DNA of 64,000 bases from Bugulina stolonifera (lineage: Eukaryota; Bryozoa; Gymnolaemata; Cheilostomatida; Bugulidae): assembly GCA_935421135.1 (NCBI GenBank), contig OW285187.1, positions 10,540,001 through 10,604,000 of the forward strand, in the 5' to 3' direction. The notes beneath the pieces were generated by a model. The model saw nothing but the letters and a program-made list of their open reading frames with translations, made no database searches and had not been told where the DNA came from. The position numbers and the translations under genes are program-made. Position 1 is the first letter of the stretch. Every line of letters begins with the position of its first letter. Below are positions 1,855 through 24,306 of the stretch, one piece after another.

Positions 1855-3142
1855 TTCACTGTTAACGTTCATATTCAATCACTGTTCTTATACTTATGTT
1901 TGATTCACTGTTCATGCTTATGTTCATTCACCATTCATATTTATGTTCATTCACCGTTCATATTTATGTTCATTCACTGTTCATGTTGATGTTCATTCAC
2001 TGTTCAAGTTTATGTTCATTCACTGTTCATGTTTATGTTCATTCACTGTTCATGTTTATGTTCATTCATTGTTCATGTTTATGTTCATGCACTGTTCATG
2101 TTGATGTTCATTCGCTGTTCAGGTTTATGTTCATTCACTGTTCATGTTTATGTTCATTCATTGTTCATGTTTATGTTCATTCACTGTTCATGTTTATGTT
2201 CATTCATTGTTTATGTTTATATTCATTCACTTTTCATGTTTATATTCATTTACTGTTCATGTGTGTGTTCATTCACTGTTCATGTTTATGTTCATTCACT
2301 GTTCATGTTTATGTTCATTCATTGTTCATGTTTATGTTCATTTACTGTTCATGTTTATGTTCATTCACTGTTCATGTTTATGTTCATTCACTGTTCATGT
2401 TTATGTTCATTCATTGTTTATGTTTATATTCATTCACTTTTCATGTTTATATTCATTTACTGTTCATGTGTGTGTTCATTCACTGTTCATGTTTATGTTC
2501 ATTCACTGTTCATGTTTATGTTCATTCATTGTTCATGTTTATGTTCATTTACTGTTCATGTTTATATTCATTTACTGTTCATGTGTATATTCATTCACTG
2601 TTCATGTTTATGTTCATTCACTGTTCATGTTTATGTTCATTCACTGTTCATGTTTATGTTCATTCACTGTTCATGTTTATGTTCATTCACTGTTCATGTT
2701 TATGTTCATTCACTGTTCATGTTTATGTTCATTCACTGTTCATGTTTATGTTCATGCACTGTTCATGTTGATGTTCATTCGCTGTTCAGGTTTATGTTCA
2801 TTCACTGTTCATGTTTATGTTCATTCATTGTTCATGTTTATGTTCATTTACTGTTCATGTTTATGTTCATTCATTGTTTATGTTTATATTCATTCACTTT
2901 TCATGTTTATATTCATTTACTGTTAATGTGTGTGTTCATTCACTGTTCATGTTTATGTTCATTCACTGTTCATGTTTATGTTCATTCATTGTTCATGTGT
3001 ATATTCATTCACGGTTCATGTTTATGTTCATTCATTGTTCATGTTTATGTTCATTCACTGTTCATGTTTATGTTCATTTACTGTTCATGTTTATGTTCAT
3101 TCACTGTTCATGTTTATATTCATTCACTGTTCATGTTAATCC
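1855..3142. repeat. 23-bp minisatellite (about 55 copies)
   Basis: Tandem repeat whose unit is 23 bp, core TTCATGTTTATGTTC followed by ATTCACTG, with point variants (CATTG, TTTACTG, GTGTGTG). Because 23 is not a multiple of three and the unit lacks forward stops, all three forward frames stay open for hundreds of codons and give the same 23-residue peptide repeat; this is a by-product, not evidence for a protein. Variant blocks recur at exact multiples of the unit: a TTGTTTATG variant at 2206, 2413 and 2873 (207 and 460 bp apart, 9 and 20 units) and a GCACTG variant at 2089 and 2756 (667 bp, 29 units), so the array grew by block duplication. Confidence 0.95.
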
Positions 3143-3702
3143 TCTGTTAGTGTTTATGTTATTGTGTTGTGTCACTGTTCATGTATTGTTTATTGTTCAG
3201 TTAATGTTCTTTTAATTATTTAATTAGTGTTGCTGTTGATATGCAGTAAGTTTTATTATTTATTTTTCAGTTAGTGCATTTAATGCAAATAGTGAAGTTA
3301 GTGTTGATGCTATTGCTGAGGCTATTTTTTACTTGGACACCTTCCACTGTCATATCATTCACATGTAAAACTAATCATTATAAACAGTTCTGACTCACAT
3401 GTAATGTAGAGTGTAGAGTACAGATCACCTGTCTAGTGTCTAATAGATATACATGTAATAAGTTTATACACAACAATGTCACACATTTATTATAACCACA
3501 GCTACAGCAATATGAGCCATACTTGTGATATTATTAGAGTTATATCAAGTTTAATAATAATCCTTTTAGCATATTTAGTCTAGTGTGTACACAGTGTGAC
3601 TTACAGTCAATATTTACTTAAACACCCAGCTGTACACGTCTACCAGTGCCAGTTTAGCTGACCATGCGGTAACAGTACTACAGTAGTAGCCATCACACCA
3701 TC
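3143..3702. other. Upstream region of the EGF membrane-protein gene
   Basis: No coding exon seen. The stretch leads into the start codon of the EGF-domain gene at 3703 and presumably holds its promoter and 5' UTR, but I see no convincing TATA or CCAAT arrangement. Confidence 0.4.
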
Positions 3703-8175: not shown

Positions 8176-11100
8176 TTAAAATATGTGTTGAATTTTTTGA
8201 GGCAGCACTTTAGACAGGTGCTGTTTTATAGACTGTATATGGTTAGTGCTTATGTCATTGAGTTCAATCTCCACCTTTTCAAATGCTGCATCATGTGGTT
8301 GGAAGGAAATGGTAAAGTCCGAGGAACGAGCTAGATTACTTTTACTAGCGACTGACTCCACTGCATTCAAGTAGTCATTGTATATAAACACTTCAGGGTG
8401 GAGCATAGAGCAATCCTTTAGCTGCTGCCACCTGGTCCTTACTTGCACAGTGAATGGGAGGTACTGTTCTATAGATATCTTATATGGTGTAGTGCTAGCA
8501 GCAGCAGTAGAGGAGGTAGATGGTTGACCTGTTAAGTAATGATGGATTATTAGAATATATACGTAGTGTGGATAGAGAGTATAGTGTATATAGTTCACAT
8601 AAGGACAATCCCTCATATCTATGTTTAAACTCTTACATCAATCATAATCTAGATTAAGTGCATACAGGGTAACATAGCATGTAGATACAGGGTAACATAG
8701 CATGTAGATACAGGGTAACATAGCATGTAGATACAGGGTAACATAGCATGTAGATACAGGGTAACATAGCATGTAGATACAGGGTAACATAGCATGTAGA
8801 TACAGGGTAACATAGCATGTAGATACAGGGTAACATAGCATGTAGATACAGGGTAACATAGCATGTAGATACAGGGTAACATAGCATGTAGATACAGGGT
8901 AACATAGTATGTAGATACAGGGTAACATAGCATGTAGATACAGGGTAACATAGCATGTAGATACAGGGTAACATAGCATGTAGATACAGGGTAACATAGC
9001 ATGTAGATACAGGGTAACATAGTATGTAGATACAGGGTAACATAGCATGTAGATACAGGGTAACATAGCATGTAGATACAGGGTAACATAGCATGTAGAT
9101 ACAGGGTAACATAGTATGTAGATACAAGGTAACATAGTATGTAGATACAGGGTAACGGTAAAATTTTGAAGCTTTTGGGAAACAAAAATTGATTTGTTTA
9201 CCAACTTTCCAACTTAATGAAAAGTAGCATTACCAATGCACAATATACACATAATTTAAAGCTACTAGCAGTATGATTACCTGTTTGTGATGTTGTGCCT
9301 GCAGCACTCTGATCTCCATCACCTGTCAGATCAACTACTTCGGAGGTGAGATCAACTACATCTGCAAACACAATATAGACATAGACATTAGTGTTGGAAA
9401 GTCACAGCATGACAACAACACAACCATATGCTACCTGATATCATAGCCAACCAGGGAGAAACAATCATGTATTTGACAGAGTTATCCGCTCAATAGAACT
9501 CCATCTATAAGAAATAGCAAGAGATATAATCTGTAATCTAGTGTAGTGTGGTGGGAGTTGTCTTCTCATTGGTTTGGTGCACATCAAGCAGTGACATTCA
9601 GCTGTCAACAGTAGTGCAGATAACAAGACAAAGTAACTGTAGCCTTTGATTCTATTGAGAGTATAGCATTTAGTCTATAATGTATCTAATGTATGCTATA
9701 TTGGAGATAAGGCAACTCCGAATAAGTAAAAAGTATTATTCTGCTGAGGGAATAGCATGGGGGGGGGGATAACATTACACAATTTATGTGCGTATGATAC
9801 AATACTGACTTACTTGGGGCTGAAGAAGAAGAAGTAGGCGGGGAGTGGAACTGGCAGAGTCTGTCATAGAGGGGATGGTTAGACTGTGGTACATATAATG
9901 CCATGTGGTACGTGTCTCTAAGTACCTGCAGAACCTTTGAGCACACCTTACCATACGTTAGTGTCGGCCTCTCTCTGATCTCCTCAGGTATCTCAAGTGT
10001 TATGATTACATTACATTCTGAGTTTTTAGACTGAGATTTTCCTTGTGTCATTACATTAGTAGATTGGAGCATATACTGCAGGCCCCATGGTTCACCGTTG
10101 CTACTCGGGTAACACAGTCTATCTCTGTGAGCCCAGGCTTCGTGTAGGCACTTCCTGAACCACCTCTTCATTGGTGGCAGCACACCTTTAGCAGTGTTAT
10201 AGTCAGCTTCAAATGGATCCTGTACGTTTATCAACTTTGCCTATGAGAACAATCATATAGTAATCTACAGTGACGCATAATAGACCATTATGCAAACCTA
10301 CTGCATTGTATTTTAAATAACCATGTGCCTTAAATACAGCACAAGTAAGTATTAGACTAATGGGGTGCCAACTTCTTAAAATTTTGTAAAAGCTTTAAAC
10401 AACAATTCTCACAGACGTCAGGTTCAGACTCTTACATTACACAAACATCAACACTAAACCCCAAAACCCAAAGAAAAGCCTTCAGTATGAAATGAATAAA
10501 TTAACCCACATACAACTTCTCCTATTGTCATACGAACATTATAGGATATATTAATAGGCTGTATAACTCACATTAAAGAGTGGTTTGGACTCAACAGCTA
10601 TGGGTTCCCCATGCAGTACAGACACTATATTCTGTTCAAATGGAAATCTTATGTAATATTCCACAAATCCCTGTAGCAGTGTCACTACAAGCAAGACGTA
10701 AATGGAGCGATAATACCATACTGAAGTTGAGATCATCCTTCACTGTGAAATCAGTCTCAACTGATATGCTATGGTCAGTATCTCTTAGGTACCATGCTGT
10801 GTTTGACTTGACATTAGAGAAAATCACTTTCAACAGATTGTTCTTTGACCAAGCAATGGCGACTATACACACTGTATATAATTGTAACTGTACATGTACA
10901 TTGTATGTGTGATATACAATACTATCTACATGTATGTACCTTGGGAGGTCATTGCCATTTTCCCTTCAAACTGTTTGAAATCGGAGGGCTGTGTATAAAA
11001 GCTTTCCCCTTCCTTTGGGTCAATGATTGTATCTGGAATAGAATATTAACATATCAAATAGCACCTCAATAACCACAGTGCATAGAGAACCATGTGTTGG

Positions 11101-15359: not shown

Positions 15360-15365
15360 CACATA
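15360..15365. repeat. Left target-site duplication CACATA
   Basis: The six bases CACATA directly precede the left terminus AGTAGTATAG; the same six bases directly follow the right terminus at 24301-24306. The match does not extend to seven bases, so the duplication length is exactly 6 bp. Confidence 0.9.
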
Positions 15366-15639
15366 AGTAGTATAGTCAGTGCACTTCTAGACAGACACGC
15401 ACTCATTGACCCCTGTTTTCAACCAATCACAAGCCGGTATTTCCGATTTCAACCAATCACAGAAGAGCACAAAAATTTTGCACACGACCTTGCCAAGGTC
15501 ACCCCAAAATCCCCCCTTCTGATTGGTCGAAAAAACATTTGCACACTTGACCCCGAACCCGGCCACGACCCCTTTCCTCCCTCCTTCCCGCCCTCCTCCC
15601 CCTCCCCCACCTCCCACTCCTCCCCCACTCCTCGCCACC

Positions 15640-15865
15640 GCCCTCGTCCCGTCCGCGCCACCGCCGTCGCCGCCGCCGCCACCGCCGCCCTCACCGCCGC
15701 CGTCGCCGCCGCCACCACCGCCCTCACCACCGCCGCCGCCACCGCCGCCACCACCGCCACCGCCGCCACCGCCGCCACCGCCGCCACCACCACCGCCGCC
15801 GCCGCCGCCACCGCCGCCGCCGCCATCACCGTCATCACCGCCACCCCTCCTCCACCGCCGCCCCC
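15640..15865 (+). repeat. (GCC)n trinucleotide tract, left TIR
   Basis: Imperfect GCC/ACC triplet array embedded in the TIR, mirrored at about 23815-24025 in the right TIR with a different copy number. It accounts for the Pro-, Ala- and Gly-rich frames on both strands. GC content here contrasts sharply with the AT-rich surroundings. Confidence 0.9.
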
Positions 15866-16239
15866 CCCCCCCCCGCAACCCCCACTCACCCGAACGACCG
15901 ATCGTTTGAGGCGGTCAAGCCGCGTCCGCCCACGTTGCGTGCGGCGCCGACCGTACACGTGGAGGCGACGCCGGTGCCCCGTATCCACCGGGCCAAGCGA
16001 CTAGGCAGCGGCCCGCCGCTTCTCCCGCGCCCCCACTCGGAAAGCTTGTGATCTAAACGAGCGAATTCGGCTGCGCTTCGCCTATAGCTCTCATCAGCGA
16101 TAAGAAGAAGTACTACGGAAGGCTTGGTTTATGATGTGCATTGCATTGTTAATAAAGAAATGTGTAAAGTCTTGGCTATAAATACACTGATGGGAAGAAG
16201 GGTTGGTTCTATGATATACATTGTATTGACAATAAAGAA

Positions 16240-16561
16240 ACGTGTGCATGTGTTAAGTCAGCATATATAATACATTAAATAAACTTTCCACAATGGTGAC
16301 AATAGAATGAATAAAAGATTGTGTACACGTGTTAAAACACAATTGAAAGAATAAAAGACACATATTTAAAAGAGTATGTCATATCTATTATTAGCAAGAA
16401 AGTCTGTGTGCATGTGTTAAGACAGTGTGTATTATACATTAGATAAACTTTTCACAATAGTAGCAATAGAATAAATAAAAGGTTGTGTGCATGTGTTAAG
16501 TCAGCATTATGTAATATATTAAATAAACTTTTCACAATAGTAGCAATAGAATAAATAAAAG
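16240..16561 (+). repeat. Sub-terminal tandem repeats, left
   Basis: Diverged units containing GTGTGCATGTGTTAAGTCAG followed by TTAAATAAACTTTTCACAAT and GCAATAGAATAAATAAAAG. Related starts near 16249, 16413 and 16493. Each unit carries one or more AATAAA words on the + strand, reading inward from the terminus. Confidence 0.8.
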
Positions 16562-16578
16562 AGGAGTTTAGGTACTTA

Positions 16579-18023
16579 TTACTCATCTTCATCAGAAGTC
16601 GTAGGAGCTATAATGTTTACGACTTCGGTCTCAGCATACTCTAATTGATATGCTCCAGCTCCAAACTCTTGACACAGTCTTACCTACAAGATGATTTTAG
16701 TTTTTTACTCAGACGAATATCACTCAAGGTGGACAAAGCAAGAAATCTATACTTCTTTATGTTGTTGGTCCCTTACCATATCTGCTGATTTGTAGAGGTG
16801 AGCTAGTTGTTGAGGGGTTTCACTTTTGTAGTTACGAACTTCAGAATCAGCTCCCAATCTTAGACATGTATGTAGACATTCGTAGTCTTCATTCTCTATG
16901 GCAATGTGAGATGGGGCGTATCCATCTCCCATTCGCTATAATATCAAACAAGAGAATAGAATTAAACTCCCCATCTAACTTATCAATTCGATCTACTCTA
17001 CTTTTATTCCACTGTAATGTATTCACTTACCCTCATATCTAAGTCAGCCCGAGTATTTTTTTTTAGTACCTTTAGTGCCTCTCTATGCTTGCTGCTATGC
17101 GCTGTTTCAACAATGAGGTGGACTACACTCCTTCCATCATGATTGTAGCTCTGTACATTGTCTTGGGGAAGTGATTTGTAAGGAACTCTGAAGTATGGAT
17201 GCTTTACTTCTGCTCTGGTCAAACTTGTGGTTAGAGCATGAATAACCTTAGCTCTACCCAGACGTGCAGCAATGTGAAGGGGGGTGTCACCTTCCAAATA
17301 AACATTAGCAATATAGATAAGTACCGAATTGTTACAAGTTTTGCAACACTTTATTTTTTAACAAGCAATGCATGCAAACATTGGTGCTATAAAACACTAA
17401 CCCCAAGCATCGGCTATTGCTCCATCCGCTCCCCTTGTGATGATGAGGCGAATTAGTGAATCCGAACAATAAGACTGTACAGTTAGGTGAAGTAACGTCT
17501 GCCGATTCGCATTCTTTGTATTCAGTTGTTTGTGACTCCTCGCAACAAATACCGCGAGTGCAACGGCTCTCTCATCTCTATCTCGGGCTGCTTCTAGTAC
17601 CTCACTACATCATTTAGCATGATATTTGTTTTTCACATAGTTGAGAGGTAGTTATATGGGAAATTTGTCTATCATATTTTATTTTGATCATAAAAGACAA
17701 TACGAAACAAAAAAAAAAAAATAGTTGGAAGTATGTATAACTTACAACTCTTCATCCTTTCCATCTTGCTCCCAAAAGATAGAACGAATTTCTTCTAGTA
17801 ACTGTGTGCTAAGCTTATTACGAATATCGGTTAAAGGATCCCATTTCTGCCAGTCTAGAGGTAAGCTTTTTTGGAGAAAGAGCTCAGACATCCCCTCAAA
17901 TAAGTCTTTATTCTCATACTTGCTTTGTTCTGTACATCTTTCCACTGTTACCTTCATCAGCTCTTGGTTTATAGGAGTCATTAGCTTGTTGCTATACTCG
18001 CTTGATCCATATCCACTTTCCAT
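16579..18023 (-). CDS. IkB-like ankyrin-repeat protein carried in the TIR element
   Basis: Five exons (18023-17746, 17604-17402, 17290-17031, 16935-16777, 16683-16579), all GT-AG and in phase, give 334 residues. The N-terminal 90 residues are charged with no assigned domain, but begin MESGYGSS, which resembles the phosphodegron DSGxxS of IkB proteins with Glu for Asp. About five ankyrin repeats follow: TLLHL near 129-133, GDTPLHIAAR 161-170, DGRSVVHL in exon 3, DGYAPSHIA 251-259, SETPQQLA near 286. A short acidic tail ends SDEDE. Ankyrin core plus N-terminal degron plus acidic tail is the IkB/Cactus layout; family members mask the nuclear localisation signal of Rel/NF-kB dimers in the cytoplasm. 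A generic ankyrin protein is the alternative. Retained introns argue against retrocopy origin. The stop lies 17 nt from the TIR boundary. Confidence 0.8.
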
Positions 18024-18108
18024 GCTATTTGTGTGCTAACCTTCTTTAATTTCTATTAAGAACAGACTGGAGCTAGAAAGAGTTAACTAAACTACTGTTT
18101 CCACCTCT

Positions 18109-18149
18109 CTTTATATAGTGAATAAAAAGATACAAATAAAGCTGATTGG
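18109..18149 (-). promoter_or_regulatory. TATA and CCAAT motifs upstream of the IkB-like gene
   Basis: On the minus strand, a CCAAT box (18149-18144) is followed by TATATAAAG (18117-18109), about 86-94 nt before the ATG at 18023. The spacing suits a TATA promoter with a short 5' UTR. It abuts the central minisatellite. Confidence 0.6.
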
Positions 18150-18175
18150 CTAACAGCATATACATTGGAGCGCAT

Positions 18176-19415
18176 TGGAAACACATCAGAGTGCATCGAA
18201 TCACATCGGGAAAGATCGAAAACACATAGGGAAACATCGAAACACATCGGGAAAGGTCGAAAACACATCGGGGGAGGTCGAAAACACATGGGGACACATC
18301 GAATCACATCGGGGGAGGTCGAAAACACATCGGGACACATCGAATCACATCGGGGGAGGTCGAAAACACATCGGGACACATCGAATCACATCGGGGGAGG
18401 TCGAAAACACATCGGGTCACATCGAATCACATCGGGGGAGGTCGAAAACACATCGAATCACATCGGGGGAGGTCGAAAACACATCGGGGGAGGTCGAAAA
18501 CACATCGGGACACATCGAATCACATCGGGGGAGGTCGAAAACACATCGGGGGAGGTCGAATCACATCGGGGGAGGTCGAAAACACATCGGGTCACATCGA
18601 ATCACATCGGGGGAGGTCGAAAACACATCGAATCACATCGGGGGAGGTCGAAAACACATCGGGGGAGGTCGAAAACACATCGAATCACATCGGGGGAGGT
18701 CGAAAACACATCGGGACACATCGAATCACATCGGGGGAGGTCGAAAACACATCGAATCACATCGGGGGAGGTCGAAAACACATCGAATCACATCGGGGGA
18801 GGTCGAAAACACATCGAATCACATCGGGGGAGGTCGAAAACACATCGAATCACATCGGGGGAGGTCGAAAACACATCGGGGGAGGTGGAAAACACATCGG
18901 GACACATCGAATCACATCGGGGGAGGTCGAAAACACATCGAATCACATCGGGGGAGGTCGAAAACACATCGAATCACATCGGGGGAGGTCGAAAACACAA
19001 CGAATCACATCGGGGGAGGTCGAAAACACATCGGGACACATCGAATCACATCGGGGGAGGTCAAAAACACATCGGGTTACATCGGGGAAGGTCGAAAACA
19101 CATCGAGACACATCGAATCACATCGGGGGAGGTCGAAAACACATCGGGGGAGGTAAAAAACACATCGGGTTACATCGGGTTACATCGGGTCACATCGGGG
19201 AAGGTCGAAAACACATTGGGACACATCGAATCACATCGGGGGAGGTCGAAAACACATCGAGACACATCGAATCACATCAGGGGAGGTCGAAAACACATCG
19301 GGGGAGGTCGAAAACACATCGGGTTACATCGGGTTACATCGGGTTACATCGGGTTACATCGGGTTACATCGGGTTACATCGGGTTACATCGGGTTACATC
19401 GAATCACATCGGGAT
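18176..19415. repeat. Composite ACATCG minisatellite between divergent genes
   Basis: About 1.24 kb built from short modules that all begin ACATCG: a 10-bp module ACATCGAATC, 10-bp modules ACATCGGGAC and ACATCGGGTT, and a 21-bp module with ACATCGGGGGAGGTCGAAAA plus C. Modules are shuffled rather than strictly alternating. The right end is a pure run of eight 10-bp units GGGTTACATC at 19321-19400. Two plus frames stay open for more than 400 codons with His/Arg/Ser/Glu-rich peptides, a by-product of a stop-free unit. It fills nearly the whole space between the two promoters of the element. Confidence 0.95.
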
Positions 19416-19452
19416 GCAATAAATCAGACTAAAAAAAAGGCAAATCACTTCT

Positions 19453-19477
19453 GATTGGACAGAGATTTCCATAAAAG
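19453..19477 (+). promoter_or_regulatory. Inverted CCAAT and TATA-like motif for the + cargo gene
   Basis: ATTGG (19454-19458, inverted CCAAT) is followed by CATAAAAG (19470-19477), about 110 nt before the ATG at 19586. Together with the CCAAT/TATATAAAG pair at 18149-18109 this makes a symmetrical divergent promoter arrangement around the minisatellite. Confidence 0.5.
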
Positions 19478-19585
19478 CAAGCGTGAGAGAGGATTTTTAT
19501 CATTACCACTCAACCACCTAGTAAAGACTTGCAACTCTGTGGATATTTACTAATTTCTCTGAATAAACATCACTCAACAATTAAT

Positions 19586-22510
19586 ATGGTGAGTAAACTT
19601 ATTTTAATATGTATTTTAGTATGAATTTACTCATTTGAGTTAACATTGGGACTAATTCTATTTTAGTAGTGATATAATACTCCCTTGGTATGACCAGAGC
19701 TTAGAAACTTTGTAAGCTTATGTATTAAACTGTTTTGATTCTCAACATGAGAGCAAGTATGTAGAGATCTGATCTGTCTATACTACAATTTGTGTGACCA
19801 GAGCTTAGAAGCTTTATATGTTGTGAGATTTATTTTCAATATGAGTAGTTATACCACTAGTAGTGTAATAAGTATCAAAACTGTTTATTACCACTTGTAC
19901 TGGCTATACTAGTACATCCTAGCTATTTTAATATGTATTTTAATATGAACTTACTCATTTGAGTTAACATTGGGGCTAATTATATTTTAGTAGTGGTATA
20001 ATTCTCCTTTGGTATGTCCAGGGCTTAAAAACGTTGTAAGCTTATATATTAAACTGTTTTGATTCTCAACATGAGAGCATGTGTGTAGAGATCTGCTCTG
20101 TCTATACTACAATCAGTGTGACCAGAGCTTAGAAACTTTATTATAAGTGGTTATACCACTGTAGTGTTTCTTTCTTTAGTAACTATGTTGCATTAGTAGT
20201 TCCATCTACTTGACTCATGCTTTGGTATATGTTTATTACTCTACATATACTTACAGGCTTCTACATCTAAATATCAAAGAAAGAAATATATAAGAAAAAT
20301 TAAAACATCAAAAAAAGGTATGAAGTATATGATTACGTACGATTCGGAAGACAGAAGACGAATCTCGAGGAAAAGAATCCCATCTCCAGAAATGGTTAGT
20401 CTATTATCTTATTTGTTCACACATGCATTACACCTTCAATCCACTATGGTGTTGGGTTTCTAAGATGTCAAAGGAGATTACTGACATTTCTTCAGAAGTA
20501 CATGTTAGTTACACATAATGATGATGTACTTTTTTATACTATAAGCCTCTTACCATGTCTAGAATGTCAAAAGAGACTACTTCCTTTTTAAAACCAGATG
20601 TTAATTAGCCATAGTATGATTTTCTCTAATTCTATAAGTCTCTTACCATGTCTAAGATGTTAAAGATTAGTGATATTTTTATTATAAGTATTGCACTTTC
20701 TTTCTTATGTATTATTTTTATCAATAAGACACTTTTTTTTCTTTTCTTATGTGAAAAAATATAACATAAATTACAACTGGTTTTCTTATGTTAATGATGT
20801 ATTTCTCTTTATGTGAGTAAATAGACAGGCTTTAGTAGACTTGCTTAGTACTTAGAGTGCTAGTTTTTTCATCAAATTCCTCAAAAATCATATATTACAA
20901 ATAACTATGTTAATGTAGTTTGTTAATTAGTCTCTGCACATTTTATTTACATTATAGAATGAAAAAGAAACAGAACTAGGGGAAGAAGAAATTGCGTTAT
21001 TTGAAGAATGTGGGGGAGTAGATGGGTTCGAGATAGGTAAGAATGATCTAGTATCTATTTGTATATTTAGAATCTTTTTTTTTTTTCTGATTTACAAGTA
21101 AGTCATATGTTCTCTCTCACTTATTCTTGTTATTTTCTTTCTTTTTTAGGACTCAGAGCAAAGCCGATATGTAAGGGGGGTCTAAGATTCTATGTCTTTG
21201 TTAGTGATGAGACAAAAAGAAGACTGGAGATGTCACTAACAAAGCCATTTGAATCGGACGACCCCTGCTTTTTATGCAATAAGAATGTTGGGCACCGACG
21301 AGGTGTCCACATTCAACAACATTTTTTGCTCCGAATCTGTTTTTGCTATCACATAACAGTAGATGATGAGGGGATGAATAGACACTACAACTTTCCATCT
21401 AATCATCATATTGATGGAAAGCCCTGTCACCGACACATCTCATTCAACACACGCTTTCTAACCGATATCTATTCATTAAAAAAGACCATATCCTTTTTGC
21501 AAAGGGTCACTGGTCACTCTCCACCTTCCAAAATACTCATCCCCGCATACACTCCAACAACTGTTGGTGGGGTAGTATACCCTCCCTTCTTTAAGGGGAT
21601 GTCTACTACTCCATTCTCTTTAAAGTCTGGGGTGTGCTCTTCACAATTTCCTCTCCCTTCTCACCATCATTTTGATTCAGATGCTTCTTCCATCAGTAAC
21701 TCTCTTACTAATGGAGACATTACCATCTCTACTTCTTCTCTTACAACTACTACTATTACTACTACTCCTTCTACTACTTCTTTTCCTCCACTCTTTTCTT
21801 CACATTCACCCTCTCATTCTCCTGAAAGATCTGTAAAGTCTGGGGTGTGCTCTTCACAATTTCCTCTCCCTTCTCACCATCATTTTGATTCAGATGCTTC
21901 TTCCATTAGTAACTCTCTTACTAATGGAGACATTACCACCTCTACTTCTTCTCTTACAACTACTACTATTACTACTACCATTACTACCACTCCTTCTACT
22001 GCTTCTTTTCCCCCACTCTTTTCTTCACATTCACCCTCTCATTCTCCTGAAAGGTCTGATGATACAGTTACCACTGTTTCGATACCTACTTCTACTCCCA
22101 CCTCTTCACCTGCTCCACTCTTTTTCTTAGATTCACCCTCTTTTTCTCTTGGAAGATCTAATAATACAATTACTAGTCTTTCAATACCTACTTTTATTAC
22201 TACTTCTACTACTACCACTTCTTCCTTTTCTTTAGCTTCACCCTCTCTTTCTTTTGGAAGAGAGCTACTTAGCTCGCAATCTCCTTCTTGTTCGTCTGAA
22301 CTCAATCTTAATACCCCCACCACTATTATCCCCATAGAAGAGGAGACTGTCAGTGAACTAGTTGATCGAAGCAGACTCCCCCCATCTTTTTTCTCTGGAG
22401 CAGTTGAGTATTACCGCTCTGCCATTTTTCTTCTCAAGAAGAATGGGTATCACAGAGAGGTAATAGCACAAGCTGAAGCTTACCTTCGAGTCAGTGAAGA
22501 AAAGCTCTAA
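19586..22510 (+). CDS. Unrecognised cargo protein: basic N-terminus, Cys/His cluster, Ser/Thr-rich repeats
   Basis: Four exons (19586-19588, 20257-20394, 20958-21036, 21150-22510) join in phase to 526 residues; exon 1 is just the ATG followed by GTGAGT. I do not recognise the family. Residues 2-47 are very basic (KYQRKKYIRKIKTSKK, later RRRISRKR), suggesting nuclear entry or nucleic-acid contact. Exon 3 is acidic. A Cys/His-rich block follows: CFLCNKNVGHRRGVHIQQH (C-x2-C-x10-H-x3-H, near a C2H2 finger) with further CFCYH and a His cluster, probably zinc-binding. The middle (about 190-450) is Ser/Thr/Pro-rich with an almost exact 71-codon duplication (near 21621 and 21834). The last 50 residues return to ordinary composition (VEYYRSAIFLLKKNGYHREV), possibly a helical hairpin. 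It is the divergent partner of the IkB-like gene. Confidence 0.7.
21621..22046 (+). repeat. 213-bp in-frame duplication inside the cargo gene
   Basis: Two copies of a 213-bp (71-codon) unit begin with TAAAGTCTGGGGTGTGCTC at 21621 and 21834. Coding includes SGVCSSQFPLPSHHHFDSDA, then a Thr/Ser run and SHSPSHSPERS. The length is a multiple of three and the frame is kept, consistent with selection on coding. A further weak copy of the Ser/Pro part follows. Confidence 0.85.
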
Positions 22511-22609
22511 TCATCTTTCTTTAGTTTTTTTTCTTTTTTCTCCCACTCTCTTTCTCCCACTCTCTCTCTGTAGTGTCTCATTCCCTCTGCATTTACTTTT
22601 ATGTGATAG

Positions 22610-23400
22610 CAAATCAGTGAGGATTTTTTTTTTAAATTATTTTTTTAAATTATTATATAATGGTATTCTAACACTTATACACATCCTTTTATACATTCTA
22701 TTGCTACTATTGTAAAAAGTTTATTTAATGTATTATATGTGCTGACTTAACACATGCACACAGCTGTCTCTTGCTATAATAGCTATGACATACTCCTTTA
22801 CATATGTGTCTTTTATTCTTTCAATTGTGTTTAAATCATATTATAATGATATTTCAACATGTGTACACAATCTTTATTTATTCTATTGCTACTATTGTGA
22901 AAAGTTTATTTAATGTATTATATATGCTGCCCTTAACACATGTACACAGACTTTTCTTGCTAACAATAGCTATGACATACTCCTTTACATATGTAGCTTT
23001 TTTATTCATTCTATTGCTAGTGTTGTAAAAAGTGTATTTAATGTATTACATAATGCTGACTTAACACATACACTCAATCTTTTATTTATTCTATTGCTAC
23101 TATTGTGAAAAGTTTATTTAATATATTACATAATGCTGACTTAACACATGCACACAACCTTTTATTTATTCTATTGCTACTATTGTGAAAAGTTTATCTA
23201 ATGTATAATATACACTGTCTTAACACATGCACACAGACTTCCTTGCTAATAACAGATATGACATACTCTTTTAAATATGTGTCTTTTATTCTTTCAATTG
23301 TGTTTTAACACGTGTACACAATCTTTTATTCATTCTATTGTCACCATTGCGAAAAGTTATTTAATGTATTATATATGCTGACTTAACACATGCACACGGT
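22610..23400 (-). repeat. Sub-terminal tandem repeats, right
   Basis: Six diverged units marked by CTTAACACATGCACACA-type words at about 22745, 22934, 23060, 23140, 23220 and 23384, alternating with CTTTTATTTATTCTATTGC and CATATGTGTCTTTTATTCTT modules. They are the reverse complement of the left sub-repeats, with more copies; only the part from 23079 outward aligns to the left TIR. They form the region downstream of the + cargo gene. Confidence 0.75.
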
Positions 23401-24300
23401 TCTTTGTTGTCAATACAATGTATATCATAGAAACAACCCTTCTTCCCATCAGTATATTTATAGCCAAGACTTTACACATTTCTTTATTAACAATGCAATG
23501 CACATCATAAACCAAGCCTTCCGTAGTACTTCTTCTTATCACTGAAACCAAGCCTTCCGTAGTACTTCTTCTTATCGCTGATGAGAGCTATAGGCGAAGC
23601 GCAGCCGAATTCGCTCGTTTAAATCACAAGCTTTCCGAGTGGGGGCGCGGGAGAAGCGGCGGGCCGCTGCCTAGTCGCTTGGCCCGGTGGATACGGGGCA
23701 CCGGCGTCGCCTCCACGTGTACGGTCGGCGCCGCACGCAACGTGGGCGGACGCGGCTTGACCGCCTCAAACGATCGGTCGTTCGGGTGAGTGGGGGTTGC
23801 GGGGGGAGGGTGGGCGGCGGTGGAGGAGGGGTGGCGGTGATGACGGTGATGGCGGCGGTGGCGGCGGCGGCGGTGGTGGTGGCGGCGGTGGCGGCGGTGG
23901 TGGCGGTGGCGGTGGTGGCGGCGGTGGCGGCGGCGGTGGTGAGGGCGGTGGTGGCGGCGGCGACGGCGGCGGTGAGGGCGGCGGTGGCGGCGGCGGCGAC
24001 GGCGGTGGCGCGGACGGGACGAGGGCGGTGGCGGGGAGTGGGGGAGGAGTGGGAGGTGGGGGAGGGGGAGGAGGGCGGGAAGGAGGGAGGGAAGGGGTCG
24101 TGGCCGGGTTCGGGGTCAAGTGTGCAAATGTTTTTTCGACCAATCAGAAGGGGGGATTTTGGGGTGACCTTGGCAAGGTCGTGTGCAAAATTTTTGTGCT
24201 CTTCTGTGATTGGTTGAAATCGGAAATACCGGCTTGTGATTGGTTGAAAACAGGGGTCAATGAGTGCGTGTCTGTCTAGAAGTGCACTGACTATACTACT
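23079..24300 (-). repeat. Right terminal inverted repeat
   Basis: Reverse complement of 15366-16561. Differences include a shorter GCC tract, a roughly 36-bp tandem duplication near 23518-23580 (AAGCCTTCCGTAGTACTTCT twice) and scattered substitutions. It begins about 570 nt after the stop of the + cargo gene. Near identity over about 1.2 kb suggests recent insertion or ongoing homogenisation between the arms. Confidence 0.9.
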
Positions 24301-24306
24301 CACATA
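24301..24306. repeat. Right target-site duplication CACATA
   Basis: Immediately follows the right terminus CTATACTACT; identical to 15360-15365. Confidence 0.9.

Follow-up and report, generated by a model that had tools for sequence, protein, structure and literature searches.

A Polinton-type element with a putative IκB/Cactus gene in Bugulina stolonifera shares its ends with a second class bearing integrase, ATPase and capsid genes

The element at the locus and its two genes

In the genome of the bryozoan Bugulina stolonifera, the window analyzed here, a stretch of 64,000 nucleotides from contig OW285187.1 (positions 10,540,001 to 10,604,000), harbors an element of 8,935 bp (15366-24300 of the window) which begins AGTAGTATAG and finishes CTATACTACT, and which most likely belongs, as a class A copy, to a young family of Polinton-type proviruses comprising two classes, A and B. 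An earlier sequence-only reading of the window had described arms of about 1.2 kb, AG...CT termini and a perfect 6-bp duplication, CACATA, and all of these were recovered: the duplication is present on both sides, the ends read AGTAG, and the arms display 95.05% identity over alignment columns (1,172 identities, 15 mismatches and 46 gap letters). Termini of the AG...CT type are a feature of Mavericks/Polintons. Between the arms lie two spliced genes with GT-AG introns, which encode proteins of 334 and 526 aa without interruption (Table 1) and in which the same reading had perceived no likeness to polymerase, integrase, protease, ATPase or capsid proteins. In agreement with this, only ankyrin repeats, in the 334-aa protein, scored over the cut-off when both proteins were searched against Pfam, and no rve integrase was found in them. 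The heptamer CATCGGG occurs 54 times in the element and 3 times (both strands) in the remaining window.

Five exons on the minus strand encode the 334-aa product, which is most similar to the Bugula neritina protein cact (71% over 87%) and, in second place, to an NF-κB inhibitor alpha-like protein from Watersipora (60% over 85%). A locus of the same genome, at C5:15.18 Mb, displays matching exons with boundaries identical to those of the class A gene, and its product likewise starts with MESGYGS; in a tree of ten sequences both proteins are joined (96/94), with that of B. neritina outside (85/94). In a PDB search with the class A protein, designed ankyrins and ankyrin-1 outranked the IκB chains, and since this ranking alone does not show an IκB, the identity rests on the protein matches, the exon boundaries and the tree. 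The gene is best read as a captured IκB/Cactus gene, sister to the presumed host cactus at C5. Over four exons the two differ by a pS of 0.71 and a pN of 0.19, that is about 2.2 substitutions per synonymous site (dS) and 0.22 per nonsynonymous site (dN), with a dN/dS of about 0.1, in which dS is near saturation and the host branch is included; these values point to an old capture and a conserved protein. Between the window copy and that of L021, 6 synonymous and 2 nonsynonymous changes were counted in four exons. The MESGYGS start resembles DSGxxS and may be a degron. Two other predicted IκB-like proteins, P0014 (318 aa, on a contig of 8.5 kb) and P0016 (240 aa, on one of 13.2 kb), may represent further IκB genes on mobile elements.

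The plus-strand gene comprises four exons, and its 526-aa product combines a Cys/His-rich core with a Ser/Thr-rich tail. This protein is an orphan: nothing exceeded the cut-off in Pfam, in the protein database not one of 359 candidates reached E<=10, the first 224 residues gave two PDB matches (E 0.58 and 0.81), neither of them convincing, and the structure model obtained a predicted local distance difference test score (pLDDT) of 32. Over the core, which offers about 100 synonymous and 350 nonsynonymous sites, 5 synonymous and 1-2 nonsynonymous changes separate it from L013 and L021-L023, 11 and 10 from L015, and 0-1 and 1-2 from L024, L027 and L028. On these counts, the core is under apparent constraint.

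Table 1. Features of the class A element, in window coordinates
Feature	Position	Strand	Remarks
Target-site duplication CACATA, left	15360..15365	.	perfect copy of the right one
Terminal inverted repeat (TIR), left	15366..16562	+	1,197 bp; outer ~654 bp (to 16019) matches class B arms generally, with longer matches in B copies L011, L017 and L025
Terminal 29-mer, left end	15366..15394	+	family marker
IκB/Cactus gene, exon 5	16579..16683	-	with stop
IκB/Cactus gene, exon 4	16777..16935	-	
IκB/Cactus gene, exon 3	17031..17290	-	
IκB/Cactus gene, exon 2	17402..17604	-	
IκB/Cactus gene, exon 1	17746..18023	-	starts MESGYGS
Tandem array on ACATCGGG	18160..19419	+	borders approximate; heptamer CATCGGG
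Orphan Cys/His gene, exon 1	19586..19588	+	consists of the ATG, as inferred from the splice signals
Intronic direct duplication, copy 1	19600..19817	+	92% to copy 2
Intronic direct duplication, copy 2	19924..20141	+	
Orphan Cys/His gene, exon 2	20257..20394	+	
Orphan Cys/His gene, exon 3	20958..21036	+	
Orphan Cys/His gene, exon 4	21150..22510	+	Cys/His core up to ~21601, followed by Ser/Thr-rich repeats
Terminal inverted repeat, right	23078..24300	-	1,223 bp; 23656-24300 matches class B arms generally
Terminal 29-mer, right end	24272..24300	-	
Target-site duplication CACATA, right	24301..24306	.	

Copies in the genome and the ends common to both classes

The terminal 29-mer was searched in the whole genome (234,951,659 bases in 27 contigs), and 553+553 sites were found at up to 3 mismatches, against 0+0 for a reversed-pattern control; exact matches amounted to 271+279, far above chance. 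Two markers of class A gave 141 and 145 copies, and two markers of class B 198 each. Among the matches listed, which extend over C1 and C2 and, on C3, to 2.4 Mb, 50 pairs of perfect ends were recognized; counting exact marker matches, 22 enclose an A marker, 26 a B marker, 2 neither and none both, and the median size of the elements is 9,514 bp for class A and 10,745 bp for class B. The two pairs devoid of an exact marker (C1:17537468-17546033 and C3:2413203-2421575) may contain one with mismatches. Over the same regions 3 A and 7 B markers fall outside the listed pairs, and copies with imperfect ends must therefore exist; no imperfect ends were found in the copies and flanks examined. Two class B copies at C1:14.20 and 14.30 Mb (L040-L043) share identical flanks and the duplication, and thus represent one insertion copied by segmental duplication; more class B copies follow beyond C1:14.30 Mb, at a spacing of about 60-170 kb, up to 14.68 Mb.

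In each of the 23 elements checked, that of the window included, the 6-bp duplications on both sides are identical to each other, and since e40 and e42 share their flanks these correspond to 22 independent insertions. Arms of 600 bp, 45 in total (both arms of 22 elements and the left arm of one), were not sorted by class, and some A and B arms are identical. In fact, the nearest arm from another element belonged to the same class in 25 of the 45 cases, a value reached by 1,679 of 5,000 shuffles, whose mean was 22.6. The stretch common to A and B generally spans the outer ~650 bp, and extends to 1,088 columns at one end of the B copy L025. Arrays of CATCGGG are likewise present in class B, with 15-69 occurrences (both strands) in 14 of 15 main pieces; the other main piece, L009, has none, and its second piece, L010, has 45.

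The element had been regarded in the sequence-only reading as a gene-carrying, non-autonomous Polinton derivative. This holds in so far as its ends and 6-bp duplication are those of class B, which bears integrase, ATPase and capsid genes; derivation of A from B by internal deletion was rejected, as what the two classes have in common is confined to their termini and a related repeat unit, and includes no genes. A search with the TIR end, suggested there as a route to autonomous relatives and empty sites, led to the 29-mer sites and to the gene-bearing class B, and to no empty site among the sequences examined, the four spanning matches being the own left flank of e23 and e28.

Class B genes and the polymerase

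Class B encodes an integrase with rve domain and chromodomain, an A32-like packaging ATPase (Pox_A32, 1.3e-6, 28.5 bits against a cut-off of 22.8), a double-jelly-roll (DJR) capsid protein and further virion-like genes. A class B protein of 175 aa, with no Pfam match, finds its best PDB match, a weak one (E 0.086), in the S273R cysteine protease, and is a possible protease. A PHROGs search returned matches for the integrase only, and a scan of viral contigs using the capsid alignment gave no match. In most genes of both classes, synonymous change exceeds nonsynonymous change per site.

The sequence-only reading had also suggested testing whether full-length copies that carry pPolB and integrase have these termini; the integrase is indeed present, in class B, and pPolB was not found in the 24 copies examined. 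The PF03175 profile gave 14 candidates in the whole genome, all of which were scored, and 11 matches in frames of 387-1,415 aa, none of them inside the 9 class A or 15 class B copies. Likewise, repeats and inserts apart, no unexplained frame of at least 150 aa remains in the 15 class B copies, the last 0.9 kb of the L048 copy excluded, and none of the six PolB matches on C1 and C2 lies inside a perfect-end pair among the pairs listed, which do not cover ends with 1-3 mismatches. Downstream of the PolB frame at C1:12828897, the sequence L050 encodes a different integrase, which shares 27% identity with the class B enzyme, and PolB-bearing Polintons with their own integrase therefore exist in B. 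stolonifera. This frame belongs to a low-copy group (C1:12828897, C2:16262050, C10:524940, C1:4280945 and C4:2373604) with frames of 1,214-1,381 aa, one of which contains a TGA. As for inserts, a class B copy is split at L012 1009-4172 by what is probably another transposon, containing several frames, and a class A copy is interrupted at L015 7394-10000 by a long open frame which we take to resemble a non-LTR retrotransposon protein.

Relationship between the classes and known systems

Based on these results we consider it likely that class B mobilizes class A in trans and probably also packages it, that class A carries an IκB decoy, and that its polymerase is supplied in trans. Since A and B carry the same interchangeable termini, the class B integrase most likely inserts both, presumably acting in trans on class A, and the ATPase and capsid of class B would probably package both genomes. 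The unsorted termini further suggest that genomes of both classes occur in the same cells, where they would be replicated side by side and recombine with each other. During production, the class A IκB would most likely retain NF-κB/Rel in the cytoplasm, thus damping the host response. DNA synthesis would probably depend on a polymerase provided in trans, either by the host or by the PolB-bearing Polintons found at other loci.

Several observations weigh against this proposal. Integration in trans, packaging and particles are here predictions from genome sequence, and class B, with no recognizable polymerase, is by its gene content not a complete helper. The unsorted arms could result from recombination between integrated copies instead of co-replication, and the right arms of the class A elements e13 and e23 are far from all other arms. 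If all 553 end pairs at up to 3 mismatches are elements, about 210 of them are unaccounted for by the A and B markers, and could be copies of greater age or members of a third class. The reading of the C5 locus as the host gene is based on a view of 3 kb, and its protein was pieced together from matching peptides. Constraint on the IκB gene is mixed between class A copies: in comparison with the most different one, L016 (the second piece of the class A copy in L015), 4.7 synonymous and 11.3 nonsynonymous changes were counted in four exons, exon 1 being almost neutral. Finally, at least one of nine compared genes contains an internal stop in 7 of the 15 class B copies, and frame-breaking or other indels occur. 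The uneven constraint on IκB and the stops in class B slightly weaken the proposed relationship.

We give about an even chance to the possibility that class A is a satellite, or hitchhiker, that parasitizes class B together with the supplier of polymerase, and whose IκB serves class A itself. The distribution of genes is consistent with it, as A has no recognized mobility or virion gene and B possesses integrase, ATPase and capsid; however, A maintains two long spliced genes for which a minimal parasite would have no need. With the present data, such a satellite is indistinguishable from one half of a bipartite Polinton, that is an integrating animal DNA virus with a genome split over A and B, both of them needed, with termini freely exchanged and DNA synthesis borrowed. 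In this arrangement, which we regard as a tentative alternative, B would provide integration and virions, and A would suppress immunity and might, through its orphan protein, also serve replication. The comparable copy numbers (141-145 and 198) and sizes (medians of 9.5 and 10.7 kb), the CATCGGG arrays in both classes, the termini unsorted by class and the excess of synonymous change in most genes of A and B all point in this direction, but a satellite on which B does not depend would leave the same marks, and a polymerase was found in neither class. Passive capture, in which a host gene came to lie between Polinton ends in the manner of pack-type transposons, with a protein of no use to the element, is improbable: the exon structure equals that of the presumed host gene and the constraint between the window copy and L016 is weak, yet the gene is whole, its dN/dS against the C5 gene is low, although dS is near saturation, and the orphan core is constrained too. 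Assignment to another superfamily with 6-bp duplications, Ginger2 or Dada, with Polinton-like ends, was rejected as hardly credible, for although the targets described for Ginger2 are likewise 6 bp long and AT-rich, and its integrase clusters close to the Polinton ones, its termini are TGTNR (PMC2836005), not AG...CT with a TIR of ~1.2 kb, and the partner class encodes a DJR capsid protein and an A32-like ATPase.

A non-autonomous class A served by class B in trans remains our preferred interpretation, and the alternative raised in the sequence-only reading, that relatives sharing the TIR might belong to another superfamily such as Dada, hardly applies, the gene set of B and the ends being of Polinton type. 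Polintons usually measure 15-20 kb, considerably more than the medians of either class. The likeness to Mavericks/Polintons lies in the 6-bp duplication, the long TIR and the AG...CT termini and, in class B, also in the rve integrase with chromodomain, the A32-like ATPase and the DJR capsid; the difference is that the class of the window is devoid of these genes, that pPolB was found in neither class and that the gene sets are split over two elements. In nematode Mavericks the cargo reportedly travels with the core genes, whereas that of class A travels alone. These nematode elements (wosp, krma) are described as carrying captured host genes (PMC10680173), and are in this respect similar Polinton-type elements with host-gene cargo. 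Adintoviruses and Polinton-like viruses are small DJR viruses, like class B; most Polinton-like viruses are described as devoid of pPolB and RVE integrase and as using other replication proteins (PMC11071308), whereas class B keeps an RVE integrase and has no recognized replication protein. The vankyrins of polydnaviruses, reported to be homologous to IκB, to act on NF-κB and to be devoid of sequences for regulated degradation (PMC3757122), are likewise virus-borne, as the class A IκB is carried on a virus-like element; in contrast to them, the latter keeps MESGYGS, as does the C5 gene, and has introns. A multipartite precedent linked to the Polinton lineage is given by the bidnaviruses, segmented DNA viruses, some with up to twelve segments, with a PolB of adintovirus type (PMC11071296). 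They differ in having a parvovirus-like capsid protein, and an integrated pair of classes with a common TIR is not mentioned in the consulted part of that account (PMC11071296).

In the open-access literature, no paper was found with non-autonomous or nonautonomous Maverick or Polinton as a phrase, nor with Maverick, Polinton and bryozoan together, and among the matches listed there is no title pairing Polintons with IκB and no described pair like A and B. Across several hundred insertions in an animal genome assembled at chromosome scale, a Polinton-type capsid and integrase set and a host-derived immune regulator occur here on separate elements with common ends. With this pair it becomes possible to test the movement of non-autonomous Polintons, the existence of multipartite ones, the way in which such elements replicate without a PolB of their own, and whether a captured IκB is put to use by an invertebrate virus-like element. 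Outside the element, long open frames built of tandem repeats are also present in the window at 1866-3150 and 8638-9229.
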